In this document: positions 1-27,179 of the stretch, piece by piece | How positions within the stretch are numbered: the first letter of the stretch is position 1 | Layout of the letters: each line of letters opens with the position of its first letter | From: Saitoella complicata NRRL Y-17804 | Taxonomy: Eukaryota; Ascomycota; Saitoellomycetes; Saitoellales; Saitoellaceae | Assembly: GCF_001661265.1 (NCBI RefSeq) | Contig: NW_017567022.1 | Coordinates: 1 to 64,000, forward strand | Reading direction: 5' to 3' | DNA length: 64,000 nt | Position numbers and translations under genes: made by a program | Notes under the pieces: generated by a model | Databases searched by the model: none | Told to the model about the DNA's origin: nothing | The model's input: only the letters and a program-made list of their open reading frames with translations

Positions 1-114
1 AACCCTAACCCTAACCCTAACCCTAACCCTAACCCTAACCCTAACCCTAACCCTAACCCTAACCCTAACCCTAACCCTAACCCTAACCCTAACCCTAACC
101 CTAACCCTAACCCT
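1..114 (+). repeat. Telomere, (CCCTAA)n
   Basis: Nineteen uninterrupted 6-bp units (AACCCT as written) run from base 1 to 114, so the window begins at a chromosome end with the canonical TTAGGG-type repeat on the 3' strand. The tract ends in a run of A (115-120) and then passes directly into transposon coding sequence. No subtelomeric helicase gene or spacer lies between them. The true telomere may be longer than what was assembled. Confidence 0.98.
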
Positions 115-1239
115 AAAAAAGGCATTGCTTGAGGAGAACCTGGAGAGTTTAGTGTATGAGTATGAAAGGTATAGCACTGTCACTGCTTACATCCATACTC
201 TCCTCCCCTACAAGACTTACTTCGTCTCAGCCTGGGTTGATGCTGTTACTCACCTTGGTTCCTCGGTGACATCGCGAGCTGAAGGTGCCCACACCCTAAC
301 CCTAAGTCACATTCAGGTCAGCACGGGTAACCTCATTACTGTCGTCGATCGTTCTCGGTCCTTCATGGAGGAACAACACCAAGAGATCCTGGGCAAGGTT
401 GCTAAGGAGAAGATAAGTGCTGCGACTTCTTTAACAGCTCCTTTCTTTGCCGATGTCAAGTACAAGGTTTCTGCCTTTGCGCTGGACATGATTGAGCAAC
501 AATACATCCTTGCACGTCGGGAGTTGGCCACCGAGTTCAGGTTGCCCCACATGTCGGGGTTACATGAAGCTAGTTTTTGGTCTACCCTGCGCCCATGCCA
601 TCATCGAGGCATTGGAGGGAGATCGTGTTCTCTCTATTAATGATATACACGGGCACTGGCATCTTGTCCTCGACGAAAACTACATTAAGGGGCCTGCAAC
701 TCCTGACACCAACCGACAAGTTCGTGATCCTCAAGTCTTCAACGCTAGAGGACGCCCGAGGGGCTCTCAAAACCGCCGACCAGCCAGGCCACAAAGCTCA
801 ACTCAGCGAGATCCCAGTGCCTTTGAGATCGTTCAGGCCCCAGCAAGGCTCTGTGGTTTATGCAGGCGCCCCAGCCATGATCGGAGGACATGTGAGCTTC
901 GTGGAACCCAAACACCAAGCCAGACTCAGCATCCTATTGCTCCAGTGAATGGTGGGCCATCTCAACCTTGGTTTGTACCGTCCTACGATCCCCTCGAAGC
1001 TGCTCCGGTGCAATATCAGTTCTATGGCCCTCCCCCCGGGGTGCCATGGAATTACTTTGGTGGGTATGGGCACTGAGGAGTCCGTGGGAGTGTTCTGGTT
1101 TTTTTTTGTACATACTGCTAATGTAAATAATATTATCTTGTCGTGTTCTGCTCTGATCTCTCCGATTTGGCAGCTGCGGCGCCGAATCCGCGCGCGGGGT
1201 GTGTTACGAAGAGAATGGGGTGTGCCAGGATCAGGACCC
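115..1239 (+). mobile_element. MULE DNA transposon remnant, 5'-truncated by the telomere
   Basis: This is the 3' half of a Mutator-like element related to the copy at 15978-18359. It encodes the part of the transposase from about residue 345 of the other copy onward: the third catalytic acid motif (RAEGAH), the SWIM-like C-R-G-Y...P-C-A-H segment and a CCHC zinc knuckle (CGLCRRPSHDRRTC). Relative to the inner copy there is a one-base frame change near 548, in a run of C just before the SWIM segment. After the stop near 1076 the sequence matches the inner copy's terminal inverted repeat and ends in GGATCAGGACCC at 1239. Everything upstream, including the DNA-binding domain and the first two catalytic Asp residues, is missing. 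It is non-functional. Confidence 0.9.
293..305 (+). repeat. Internal telomeric patch inside the transposase remnant
   Basis: ACCCTAACCCTAA, just over two telomere units, sits where the related MULE copy encodes Lys-Cys-Leu-Lys directly after the catalytic-Glu motif. The patch replaces its counterpart at the same length, so the sequence on both sides stays colinear and in frame with the other copy. Flanking bases are clearly homologous, whereas about 10 of the 14 bases in the patch differ. Confidence 0.85.
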
Positions 1240-15968: not shown

Positions 15969-15977
15969 TTAACCTAG
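15969..15977. repeat. 9-bp target-site duplication, left copy
   Basis: TTAACCTAG immediately precedes the left terminus of the MULE and is repeated exactly at 18360-18368. Nine bases is the usual duplication length for Mutator-like elements. Confidence 0.92.
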
Positions 15978-18359
15978 GGGTCCTGATCATTCCAAACCCC
16001 CGTTTGTTCAATACCACACCCCGCGCGCCGAAAATTGAGGAGATCAGAGCAGAAACAAGAGGAATAAAATTATTTACAGTAGCGATATGTACACAAATAA
16101 ATTCCTGACGCTCCTACGCTTCCATCAAGGTCCATATGGACCAAAATAATTCCTAGGCGGGCCCGGAGGAGGCCCGTAAAACCTTTAATGCCCCGGAGCA
16201 CCCATGGGAAGGTTTCCACCAGCCATAGATGCCATCGGGGGCAATGAATAGCCGACTGAGGGTCCTTGAACTGGATGCCCCGATTGGGGAGGGTAATCGA
16301 AGCGAGGCTGTAAGGCGGGTAGACCGTGGAAGGGCATCAGAGGAGCGTCGAGGGGGTTGTAGGACGGCACAAACCATGGTTGAGAGTAGCCATCATCCAC
16401 CGTACCACTTGGAACCGGAGTTTGGCTTGGCATCTGCACGTTACGGAGCTCACATGTCCTCCGATCATGCCCGGGCCGGCTGCAAAAACCACAGAGTCTT
16501 CTTGATGCTTCAACGATCTCAAATGCGCTTGGGTCTCGCTGAGTTGAGCTGAGTGGGATGTTGCGGGATCGATTTTGAGATCCCCTCGGACGTCCTCTGG
16601 CGGTACTGAAGGGCGGGTCTCGGACTTGCTGCTGAGTTGTGTCCAATGTGGGTGCCTCAATGTAGTTCTCGTCGAGGACAAGATGCCAGTGCTTGTGTAT
16701 GTCGTGCATTGTCAAGACCCGGTCGTCGGCCAATGCTTCAGTGATTGCATGCGCACAGGGTTAACCGAAAACCCTCTTCAGGTAACCACGGCAGGTCGAA
16801 AGGGTGAAATTGGTGGCGAGCGAACGACGTGCGAGAATGTACTGCTCCTCAATCAACCCCAATGCGAAGCCCGAAACCTTGTACTTGATATCGGCGAAGA
16901 AAGCGCCCAAAGTCGGTGGAACACTCACCTTCTCGTTGGCTATCTTCCCTATTATCTCCTTGTGTTGTTCCTCCATGAATGCCCGGGAATGATCCACGAC
17001 GGTCAAGAGATTGCCTGTGCTGACTCCAATGTGACCTTTGAGACACTTGTGAGCACCTTCAGCACGGGAAGAGACTGACGATCCGAGGTGAGTGACACGC
17101 TCAACCCAGGCGGAGACAAAGTAAGTCTTGTAGGGGAGAAGGGTCTCGACGTATGAAGTAACAGTCCCATACCTCTCGTAATCACGCATCAAATCAGCGA
17201 GATTCTCCTCGAACTTCTCCTCCGTCAAGGATTTCATGAGCTCCTGCATGGTATTGAAGAAACCATCCCATTCCTCCTTAGTGCGGAATGCACTTTTGCA
17301 GTTCGTCACCACATTCTTCTCAATGTGCCAACGACATAACAATTTGGCGGCGGTGGGGAATACCTTATCATTTGCATGCATAAGGGCAAGCTCGCGGTCC
17401 GTGACGATGACAAGAGGTGTAAAGTAATCCATCAGCTCCGAGTACATACACATTGCCCAGAGATAGTCCTCCCGAGTCTCCCTAGAGAGGAAGCACAATG
17501 CTGAGGTGAACGAAGTGTTGCAACAAGTCATCCCGACAATATGAAGGAGGGGCATCTCAAACTTGTTGGTTTTGTAGGTGCAATCCATGACGAAGACATT
17601 TCGAAAGCGTTTCGTGAAACTGATAGATTGTGGGTGGGTGAAGATTAGGCCGGTAATGCGATTTTCGTTGTCCACCCTCTTCCGGAAAGGCAGGCCTTCT
17701 TCTTCGAGTTTGTCTAACAAGGCAACAATGGGTGTACGCCGGGCAAGATTCTTGACGCGAAGGTCGCGCTTGGCGTTGTAGATGTTGCGGCGCAAAAAGT
17801 CTGGGTTGCCCTCCGGGTCCTCGCGTAGGGCCACGGCAATAGTCCTAGGCAGCGCACCTGCCTTCGTCATCCTCTCAGTGTCTTTGATCTGGGTGGCTGT
17901 GAGTTTCCTGTGCTGGGGGAGTGCCGTGGGATCGATTACGGGCTCATGGTTGTGCTCCCCGTTCTTTGTCGATAACTCCCAATCTCCTGTTATCCCAGAG
18001 AGCTTGCCAACAAGCTTGAAAGGGCAGCCCTGGGCCTTGTGGTTTGATTTGCGCTGACGGGAAGTGCGGTCAAGATTATGGCGATTTCTATACTCGCCGC
18101 CACGGGTACATTTTAGCCATACTTTGCCGGGTTTGGATCGCTCAGTTGAAATGGCATAGCCACGGGGCTTGGCCCAGGCCTGGCCATAATTCTTGAGCTC
18201 TTCCAGGGTAGGGAAAGAGGCATCAGGTGGAGGATCCATTTCTGTCTCCTACAGCTGAGTTTAATGCTGTTTTGTGTGGTTGTTATGCTCTGATCTCCTC
18301 AATTTTCGGCGCGCGGGGGCGTGGTTTGAAGATTTAGCGGTGTGGAATGATCAAGACCC
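15978..18359 (-). mobile_element. MULE (Mutator-like) DNA transposon, structurally complete
   Basis: The 2,382-bp element is bounded by 74-bp terminal inverted repeats (15978-16051 and 18286-18359, equal length, about 80 percent identical). The termini read GGGTCCTGATCATTCCA on the left and the complement of GGGTCTTGATCATTCCA on the right. A perfect 9-bp duplication, TTAACCTAG, flanks it. It carries one transposase gene on the minus strand with a single in-frame stop. Intact ends and a perfect duplication point to a fairly recent insertion. It could still be moved by a transposase supplied from elsewhere. Confidence 0.93.
16185..18239 (-). pseudogene. MULE transposase (FAR1-type DNA binding, MULE catalytic domain, SWIM, CCHC), one stop codon
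   Basis: The frame opens at ATG 18239 and runs to 16185 with only one interruption, TAA at 16761-16763. The FAR1/WRKY-type zinc module is at residues 44-98 (Cys44, Cys72, His96/His98). The MULE domain carries the catalytic triad as Asp219 (VMDCTYKTNKF), Asp281 (VIVTDRELALM) and Glu394 (RAEGAHKCLK). The stop falls at residue 493, inside the SWIM-like segment, between GYLKRVFG and PCAHAI; the telomeric copy has Leu (CTA) there. The frame continues to a CCHC knuckle (CGFCSRPGHDRRTC) and a Pro/Gly-rich tail. A 492-residue product lacking SWIM and knuckle could still be made. Host functions such as those of plant FAR1/FHY3 are not implied. Confidence 0.9.
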
Positions 18360-18368
18360 TTAACCTAG
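18360..18368. repeat. 9-bp target-site duplication, right copy
   Basis: TTAACCTAG directly follows the right terminus of the MULE and equals the left copy at 15969-15977. The sequence resembles a degenerate telomeric unit, in keeping with a subtelomeric target. Confidence 0.92.
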
Positions 18369-22893: not shown

Positions 22894-22991
22894 TTGACCC
22901 AGTAGTACTGTAAATTTTGCTCAGCTTATGTCGCATTTTCCCACGACTTTTACCTGGATCATCCTGAACAAAGTTGCGGGTTACGCGCAAT

Positions 22992-23376
22992 GGGGGTAGT
23001 CAATCCTCTACAAAAAATAATCGCGTAAGTTTTAATCGCGCGGTTGCCATGGCTACTATGCATAAACATCGATTATTTTTACGAGAACGACGAGCAGGGT
23101 CGTAAAAATAATCACTTAAAAAATAATCGCCTAGGGCGAGCGGATGCGCCCAATTAGGAAATTCATGCAGATATCACCCAGGGTCTGCGCATGATCTGCG
23201 TAGCCACGTTGCTCAACCTGTCTCGAGGCAAACTCACCACCATGGATATTCACGTGAGCATGCCTGCTGAAAAAATAATCTGTCTATGTTTTGCAAGGGT
23301 TGGTCAGACCTTAGCGTATTATCCCCTGAACTATAATCTGATTCGCTGTAAAGTTTGTAGAGGATTGACTACCCCC
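22992..23376. mobile_element. MITE-like element, copy A
   Basis: The 385-bp element begins GGGGGTAGTCAATCCTCTACAAA and ends in the inverted form TTTGTAGAGGATTGACTACCCCC. It is flanked by AAT on both sides (22989-22991 and 23377-23379), a likely 3-bp target duplication. Copy B at 26777-27179 shares most of its length, including an internal CCTCGAGGCAAAC and CACCACCATGGATATTCACG. It has no coding capacity. It lies inside the larger inverted-repeat unit that begins at 22603. Confidence 0.8.
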
Positions 23377-25245: not shown

Positions 25246-26776
25246 AAGTGCATTTAGACTACCTCAGGAATTGCAAAAATAACACCTCTAATAAAGGGCT
25301 TGCTACAGAAAACTGCCTTCAAGAATGCAACGAAGAGGGGCATCCTGCTTTATATATACACAATCAACGTACTTGATAATGTGATAATGTCCCTACGTCA
25401 AAACTAATCGTGGACAAAAAAAGTGGGATTAATCCTTGATTTTTTGTCATGGATTATGCTTGATTCTCGCAGGCTTTTGCGCACCCATTGCTTGATATGA
25501 TCAGGCATAATCCATGACTTTTTGGGTCTAATTCATGATTATGTCATGTAAGATTCATGAAAAATCCGGAAAGTTCCTACAAATTGGGGGCAAATGCGAG
25601 AAAATGAAGTGTATCATGAGTATCCTAATGGCCATGGTAGCACTATCATAGGTCCATAACTCAACATGTTAGCATAAGCTCAGTCAAAGAGAAGTATCTT
25701 GTAGCATACCTGACTTTGATTTTGTTTGTGGTGACTTGAAAGATTTTCGGAAATTTCTCAAGTGGTGGTCGGGCTCTGGTCTACATGTTCGCATTTCGGC
25801 ACAGCCACACACAGCCAAACGCTGAATCCAATAGGAATGTTGTGACATCATCATGATAACATGTTTGCTAATCATGTCTCTGTATGATGGCATAAAGAGT
25901 GGAATTTCTTTCCAGGCCGTAATCCATGATAATGTCAAGGACTATGATCCATGTTTCCGTCACATGATTTGTAAACCACACTAACTGCCATGATCCATAT
26001 GTAATCCTTGTCTAATCCACAATATGACATGGATCACACCTTTTGTTAGGACTGAATGGGTTTAATCCTTGACAACTCGCATCATAGGGCAGGTTTAGTC
26101 TTGGCCATGGACCAAATTGCCCTTATTCCCAGATTTAGTTAAAACTCTTGCCCCCAAGTATAGAACAAAATGTATTATGAGTATCCTGGCCGATACAGTA
26201 GCAATAAGTATGTTCGTGTAACTCAGTTTGTTAGCACAAGTTCTCAATCACCATGAAGTCGCGTTCATACCTGTGCCTGGCAAGTTTGACCTTCCGCAGG
26301 CGCTACTGTATATAAATGCATTTGTTGTACACAGAGTAACTGTTACCACCACACGTACAGCACAACCACCGCATGTCGAGGATATAGAAAGAGGTGGACA
26401 GCACTTTTGCCATTCTTGCGATCGATCCTGTACAATGTATGGGTAGATATCGCACAGGCATATGGAGATCATCATCTTCTGGACAATTCGGTTGTGAGGT
26501 CCGACCGACAGTGCCCAGGGAATCACCGAGCGGTGCTGCAATTACCATGGCGCATGTGGCGTGGTACCATGCGCAATATATTGGCGGGAACATCAAAGGA
26601 GCTGCAACAATAGGAGTAGTCAAAGTTAAAGTTCAAAAGATTCCTATAGGATTTCCGCTCAAAAGCCAATAATGGCCCTTATTCTGACTACCAAAGTTTG
26701 ATCTGCTTTTATTTTCTGGCCTTTTATTCCTTTTCTTTCCTTCTTTTTCCTCCTCTTTCCTATTCTCTCTTATATT
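25246..26776. other. AT-rich island, repeat-derived
   Basis: No gene is supported. A segment at about 25610-25690 (GTGTATCATGAGTATCCT...) recurs in diverged form at about 26165-26270. Short forms of the MITE terminus (GTAGTCAAA / TTTGACTACC) occur near 26613 and 26695. Variants of AATCCATGA and its complement are scattered throughout. A GC-richer pocket at 26230-26600 has frames on both strands without domains. Confidence 0.5.
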
Positions 26777-27179
26777 GGGGGTAGTCAAACCTCTGCAAAA
26801 AATAACTGGTAGATTTTTAATCGCGCGGCTGCCAGGGCAACTATGCATAAACATTGATTATTTTTTTACTTTTTTTAAGGTGCTCGAGCAGGGTCATGAA
26901 AATAATTGCTCAAAAAACAATTGAGTATGGGCCAGCGGATGCGTCCAATTAGGAAATTTCTGCAGGTATCACTCAGGGTTTGTGCATGATCTGCGTAGCC
27001 ACGTCGCTCAACCTGCCTCGAGGCAAACACACCACCATGGATATTCACGTGAGCGGGAGCTAACCTTCTGCTGAAAAAATACTCTGTCTATGTTTTGTAA
27101 GGGTTGGTCAGACCTTGGCGTATTATGCTCTGGATTATAATCTAATTCTCTGTAAATTTTACAGAGGTTTGACTACCCC
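26777..27179. mobile_element. MITE-like element, copy B
   Basis: The 403-bp copy is of the same family as 22992-23376, in the same orientation. It starts GGGGGTAGTCAAACCTCTGCAAA and ends TTTTACAGAGGTTTGACTACCCC. It differs from copy A by many single changes and small indels, so the two are not recent duplicates. A 3-bp flanking duplication is not obvious here. Confidence 0.8.

Follow-up and report, generated by a model that had tools for sequence, protein, structure and literature searches.

A 13-base telomeric replacement in a MULE remnant at a chromosome end of Saitoella complicata, best read as a short interstitial telomeric sequence

Introduction

Telomeric repeats in mammals are described as inserted at breaks together with deletions (PMC2246262, PMC7215372, PMC8537989), and bases in the register of the repeat are usually found at the break (PMC2246262). 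In the available text of two papers, PMC2246262 among them, about a quarter of the loci (20-33%) are without such register bases, which are therefore not a strict requirement. Some loci carry bases that are complementary to the RNA adjoining the template (PMC2246262). Among fungi, an excess of short internal telomeric motifs is described for Pyricularia (PMC8381367), and the chromosome-fusion junctions of Kwoniella are given as free of interstitial telomeric repeats (PMC11185503, in its available text); such runs are thus not universal in fungi. Empty-site comparison of single scars was not seen in the available portions of PMC8381367 for Pyricularia oryzae, and no equal-length telomeric replacement is reported in the accessible parts of the literature searched.

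Here we describe a 13-base telomeric patch in a MULE transposase remnant, of which the best reading is that it is a fungal case of a known class, the short interstitial telomeric sequences. As in the mammalian members of this class, to judge from the available text, the runs are short, were gained in one step within unrelated sequence, lie in some cases in transposable elements and often come with loss of flanking bases; head-to-head forms occur among the mammalian ones too. Unlike at the mammalian loci in these accounts, a C precedes TTAGGG here, as it does at most telomere junctions of the CCCTAA phase in this genome; the measured internal runs are mostly 13-19 bases long (with a search threshold of 13), and the patch is an equal-length swap. 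The likeness to P. oryzae, as given in the available portions of PMC8381367, lies in a fungal genome with a surplus of two-repeat internal motifs that are denser toward the chromosome ends.

The locus is of use as a clear fungal case of telomeric repeats that most likely stem from break repair, with eight paralogs that preserve the sequence originally there. Furthermore, knowledge of the telomerase RNA would make it possible to test from sequence whether telomerase wrote such runs. On its own, the swap of equal length is a curiosity.

The terminal array and the MULE remnant

The window, which is the whole stretch of DNA analysed, covers 64 kb from the start of contig C31, itself 175,542 bases long, in a genome of 14.12 Mb and 34 contigs. 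Its relevant features are as follows; a slash marks a junction.

1..116, + strand: terminal telomeric array at the left end of C31, 19.3 copies of AACCCT, 100% perfect
117..1140, + strand: MULE transposase region, a remnant truncated by the telomere; its family also takes in the inner copy and 12 further matches in the genome
287..292, + strand: outer junction, GCCCAC/ACCC; read on the G-rich strand, TTAGGGT closes the added piece and the native GTGGGC comes next
293..305, + strand: patch ACCCTAACCCTAA, replacing sequence of the AAATGTCTCAAAG or AAATGTCTCAAGG type, 13 bases in for 13 out
306..309, + strand: inner junction, CCCTAA/GTCA; TGAC/TTAGGG on the G-rich strand
16334..17210, - strand: inner MULE copy, unpatched, 73% identical to the outer remnant and on the same contig

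The MULE remnant directly adjoins the array end at 116 and is truncated by the telomere, and the patch lies about 176-177 bases from the array end. The outer remnant, whose own 5' side is cut by the telomere, was assigned to MULE through its 73% DNA identity to the inner copy, and no Pfam match was found for 119-637 at E up to 0.1. Both the transposase domain and the terminal inverted repeats by which a MULE is recognised are present in the inner relative, which overlaps an open frame at 16761-18248 (- strand) bearing the Pfam MULE domain (E 4.6e-21) and is flanked by 80-nt inverted repeats (15975-16054 and 18283-18362) that are 80% complementary.

We searched for the family with window positions 117-1100, and homology to two copies was observed to run on to 1140. 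At least 14 genome matches were found including the remnant itself, and nine of these span the patch site. Matches on C14, C6, C18, C29 and C19 do not span it and were omitted from the alignment. The window also holds two direct copies of a repeat of about 400 bases (22991-23375 and 26776-27179), 86-91% alike in three pieces, with similar pieces on C16, C18 and C23.

The patch and the bases it replaced

All 13 bases of the patch are telomeric, at an internal site. A search of the window for ACCCTAACCCTAA with up to two mismatches gave 23 matches, 18 of them inside the terminal array (1-116). Among the five outside the array, where shuffles average 0.88, the patch is the only exact one. The eight other copies spanning the site read CA[A/G/C][A/G]TGTCTCAA[A/G]GGTCACA and are as long there as the patched copy, and C2:432304 has one extra base just past the patch position; this empty-site comparison is one of paralogs rather than orthologs. 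Telomeric letters at the site were observed in the chromosome-end copy only, and in 0/8 of the others among the matches listed, whose distances to the closest contig end range from about 12 kb to about 306 kb. The sequence-only reading of this DNA had set as a check whether only near-telomere copies carry CCCTAA-type bases, and among the aligned copies this holds. Inherited variation of the family was ruled out as the source because none of the other eight site-spanning copies carries the patch bases.

The replaced stretch stands out sharply from its surroundings. Compared with C2:648370 the patch has 10 mismatches in 13 positions, against 47/920 (5.1%) outside it (164-292 plus 306-1100), and compared with C12:420702 it has 11 in 13, against 57/913 (6.2%) over the same outside positions. 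Past position 164 the worst other 13-base stretch against C2:648370 has 4 mismatches. The one comparable stretch against C12:420702 (10 mismatches) is a 10-base deletion of C12 itself, opposite about 169-178. With unpatched copies of equal length and flanks that are 5-6% different, the length-preserving telomeric patch proposed for 293-305 of the remnant is confirmed, and so is the loss of the Lys-Cys-Leu-Lys codons relative to the inner copy. The reading frame is retained across the patch, with AHTLTLSHI in the outer remnant and AHKCLKGHI in the inner copy.

None of the eight other copies is an intermediate that carries part of the changes, so a single event is the simplest account of a change that is derived in the terminal copy. 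Microhomology at the outer junction, as read from the sequence, is at most about one base. In addition, the patch has a single orientation with colinear MULE sequence on both sides, which sets it apart from the telomere-fusion type, recognised by a head-to-head array, (TTAGGG)n(CCCTAA)n, or by subtelomeric flanks that have been joined.

Comparison of another run with its empty copies

Another telomeric run, at C31:166472, lies in what we read as a Tc1/mariner-like transposase frame. A query of 901 bases around it gave nine matches including itself, and two aligned copies without the run, C1:857024 (90% identical) and C2:230476 (89% identical), read TTG-AG-GTGCACC where the run-bearing copy reads TTG-CTAACCCTAACCCTAA-GTGCACC. 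Sixteen bases were thus gained and two lost, for a net change of +14. More distant matches spanning the site on C14 and C26 are, by their coordinates only, 14 and 12 bases shorter than the matched query stretch. The inner junction on the G-rich strand is C/TTAGGG, as at the patch.

The equal length at the patch had been taken as a sign of template-directed rewriting from telomeric sequence, and this is not borne out by C31:166472, where 16 bases came in and 2 went out, so that the amounts gained and lost vary. This insertion, the single other run that can be compared in this way, is the chief evidence against equal length as a mechanism, and a general rule of swaps of equal length was dropped for the same reason. 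The 13-for-13 swap is thus most simply a coincidence, as far as this one comparison goes. When 30 run-bearing loci were compared by local BLAST with the collected loci, no match spanned a run together with both flanks, save overlapping sequences from the same place. No other copy was found in the genome for the C31:130489 run, which by our reading lies in a retroelement-like frame.

Internal telomeric runs across the genome

We searched the genome for perfect 13-base telomeric runs followed by a base that does not continue the repeat, in all six phases and with reversed-pattern controls. Each phase is named by the bases at which the repeat stops. In the order CCCTAA, AAC, AACC, AACCC, CCCT and CCCTA, there were 43, 7, 8, 15, 16 and 8 matches. 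These were split by position and strand into end matches, within 160 bases of a contig end, and internal ones of at least 13 bases, which number 19, 1, 4, 4, 6 and 1 (35 in total). The controls gave 3, 1, 1, 2, 2 and 6. Only the CCCTAA phase clearly exceeds chance in number (19 internal against 3 in the control), compared with 16 against 12 for the five other phases pooled. A lower limit of 13 bases on run length was weighed and set aside; runs of exactly 12 bases in the CCCTAA phase numbered 3 against 5 in the control. In these counts the palindrome at C1:492045-492089 supplies two of the 35 internal matches, C25:283277 and C26:494 are internal though less than 0.5 kb from an end (the former where the terminal array is degenerate), and the AACC and CCCTA runs were mostly placed by coordinate alone.

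We measured 18 of the internal CCCTAA runs, leaving aside the long array at C5:415028. Eight are 13 bases and two are 19 bases long, with the other eight at 14, 15, 16 or 27. Hence 17/18 fall at 13-19 bases, and since 13 is the search threshold, a pile-up at this length is partly expected. Some of the internal runs may be unrelated sites such as promoter motifs or intron branch points (for example C29:5923). Longer internal telomeric arrays distant from contig ends were noticed at C18:243348 and C5:415028.

Internal CCCTAA runs were found to be concentrated near contig ends, which serve here as a proxy because some of them are without a telomere. Four of the 19 lie within 1 kb, where 0.5% of the genome is found (p ~2e-6), and eight within 10 kb, which holds 4.8% of the genome (p ~1e-6). 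As the patch had prompted the analysis, the statistics were repeated without it, giving 3/18 (p ~9e-5) and 7/18 (p ~1e-5). The internal runs of other phases (n=15, with the palindrome counted once) are also enriched: 3 fall in the outermost 1 kb of contigs (p ~5e-5) and 4 in the outermost 10 kb (p ~0.005), and an excess near ends is therefore not peculiar to the CCCTAA class. Some runs of this class lie as far as hundreds of kb inside a contig. The patch is not a one-off in this genome.

The patch has the same orientation as its nearest telomere. The eight CCCTAA runs nearest to ends are divided evenly, 4 like the nearest end and 4 against it, and all 19 are divided 6 like and 13 against. In P. 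oryzae, by contrast, most subterminal motifs point as former telomeres would, according to the available text of PMC8381367.

Bases at the junctions

The base after CCCTAA was G in 19/24 end matches, or 19/22 once two steps within an array were dropped. It was G in 12/19 internal runs, and in 11/18 without the patch (p ~0.014 against one in three). A preference for G is therefore common to telomeres and internal runs, and is expressed more weakly internally. At telomeres of this phase the second base is T in 13/22 and the third is C in 10/22, compared with T in 6 and C in 6 of the 18 measured internal runs (the patch included), which gives no clear sign that the internal runs share the GTC part of the preference. 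The patch junction, CCCTAA/GTCA, fits the telomere preference. The common junction preference suggests that telomerase itself may write the internal runs.

Origin of the patch

We consider the patch to be a short interstitial telomeric sequence that probably arose when a double-strand break within the MULE was repaired, by telomerase extension and end joining, with a probability of about 0.68. On the G-rich strand the break would have left a 3' terminus with the sequence GAATGTGAC, to which telomerase would have added TTAGGGTTAGGGT. About 13 bp would have been lost on the opposite side of the break, and the ends would have been joined with 0-1 base of microhomology. Both the patch and C31:166472 would fit a break at which telomerase extended a 3' C end, the opposite side lost bases and the two were then joined. 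The features expected of such a sequence were found, namely the identity of the repeat, a known empty sequence with a gain in one step, and changes of the end-joining kind at the break site (13 bases replaced at the patch; 2 lost and 16 gained at C31:166472). The even split of orientations near ends is expected under break repair, if telomerase can act on one side of a break as well as on the other. Against this origin stands the base before TTAGGG, a C that is not in the register of the repeat. Our confidence was also trimmed because the enrichment near ends is not specific to the CCCTAA phase and the internal preference for G is weaker without the patch. Under the break-repair account the equal length has no cause other than coincidence, and only two runs are comparable with empty copies.

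Telomerase or a microhomology-type repair had been named as a possible source from the start and is rated likely; similar runs are also enriched near contig ends. What stands of the sequence-only interpretation is the replacement of native sequence by telomeric sequence, and what is not borne out is the step from equal length to a special template-directed rewriting.

A more detailed form of the telomerase account is tentative and in our judgement unlikely. Here telomerase would start on a 3' terminal C and stop after TTAGGGT, so that the scars would consist of C plus TTAGGGT plus whole repeats (13 or 19 bases). The bases that seed natural telomeres would also pick the sites for filler, the RNA would continue as CCCUAAG(UC) 3' of the template, and the 13-base product would have bridged a 13-base MULE gap in register. 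Eight of the 18 measured runs (14, 15, 16 and 27 bases) fit neither length. Telomerase templates hold more than one and no more than two repeats according to the available text of PMC3603654; an earlier version, in which 13 bases were one pass over the template, sits badly with this and was recast as whole repeats plus TTAGGGT, and the recast version was itself rated lower for the same template length. Rfam scans of 20 loci found no telomerase RNA, and a search with RF02462 gave no match in this genome and none in 14 control genomes either. If the RNA of this fungus reads CCCUAAG beside the template, as we would predict, the patch would parallel the loci with adjoining complementary bases in the accessible part of PMC2246262.

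The equal length would be accounted for directly by an internalised vestigial telomere. The chromosome would once have ended at the site, with repeats added at GTCAC and later eroded to about two, and 117-292 would then have been copied from a MULE by break-induced replication, with the MULE homology keeping the 13 non-matching bases in register. In the available text of PMC8381367 such internalisation is put forward for telomeres of Pyricularia, and the patch does point like the telomere about 176 bases away; among all 19 CCCTAA runs, however, 13 are opposite to the nearest end and 6 like it. The outer piece is nominally nearer to the C2 copy (3/129 mismatches against 44/791 for the rest), but the difference is not significant (Fisher p 0.14), and no compared MULE copy suits as donor of the whole piece, since C2:648370 aligns only from window position 159 inward and C12:420702 has its own deletion of 10 bases opposite about 169-178. 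Conversion from a compared MULE copy was rejected on this ground too. In-register filling or break-induced copying from a MULE copy is possible; the vestigial telomere as a whole seems to us rather unlikely.

The same proximity of the array, about 176 bases away and oriented as the patch, would suit a polymerase that switched templates, jumping from the MULE to the array, copying 13 bases and returning in register. Immediately ahead of the patch, CCCACA agrees with an in-register CCCTAA at 4/6 bases. Runs of the same form are nevertheless found at distances of up to hundreds of kb from contig ends, and random switching would not yield the telomere next-base preference seen at the inner junctions, which makes this quite unlikely. 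An error of assembly or polishing comes to mind at a site 293 bases from a contig end, but it is very unlikely given similar runs deep within contigs, patch flanks that retain private differences from the other copies, and the clean empty-site comparison at C31:166472. Ordinary point mutations or chance have a negligible share. Ten mismatches in 13 at a background of 5.1% have a probability of about 3e-11, about 9e-5 perfect 13-base telomeric runs, counted over all phases, would be expected per 1000 positions, and none of the eight other copies is intermediate. Repair of a break with telomeric addition thus remains the preferred reading.

Other telomeric runs inside contigs

Five further internal runs were observed in settings of their own. 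At C18:367211, some 0.5 kb from the contig end, the opening ~100 positions of an 18S rRNA gene precede a telomeric run of 19 bases; the 18S piece scores 47.2 bits against an Rfam cut-off of 50, and no clear 18S match was found past the run. A 13-base run at C30:244503, in the opposite orientation to the nearest telomere, is followed directly by sequence like the ends of C29, C14 and C27. Head-to-head runs of TTAGGG and CCCTAA are found inside contigs at C1:492050, C4:324995 and C27:134848, the latter two with a short TTAGGG arm. At C1:492050 sequence like the end of C29 starts within one base of the run, and at C4:324995 sequence resembling several ends stops at most ~10 bases from the run or inside it, which suggests that telomeres were fused or joined there long ago. 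The events at these five loci look like fusions or joinings, of another kind than the MULE patch.
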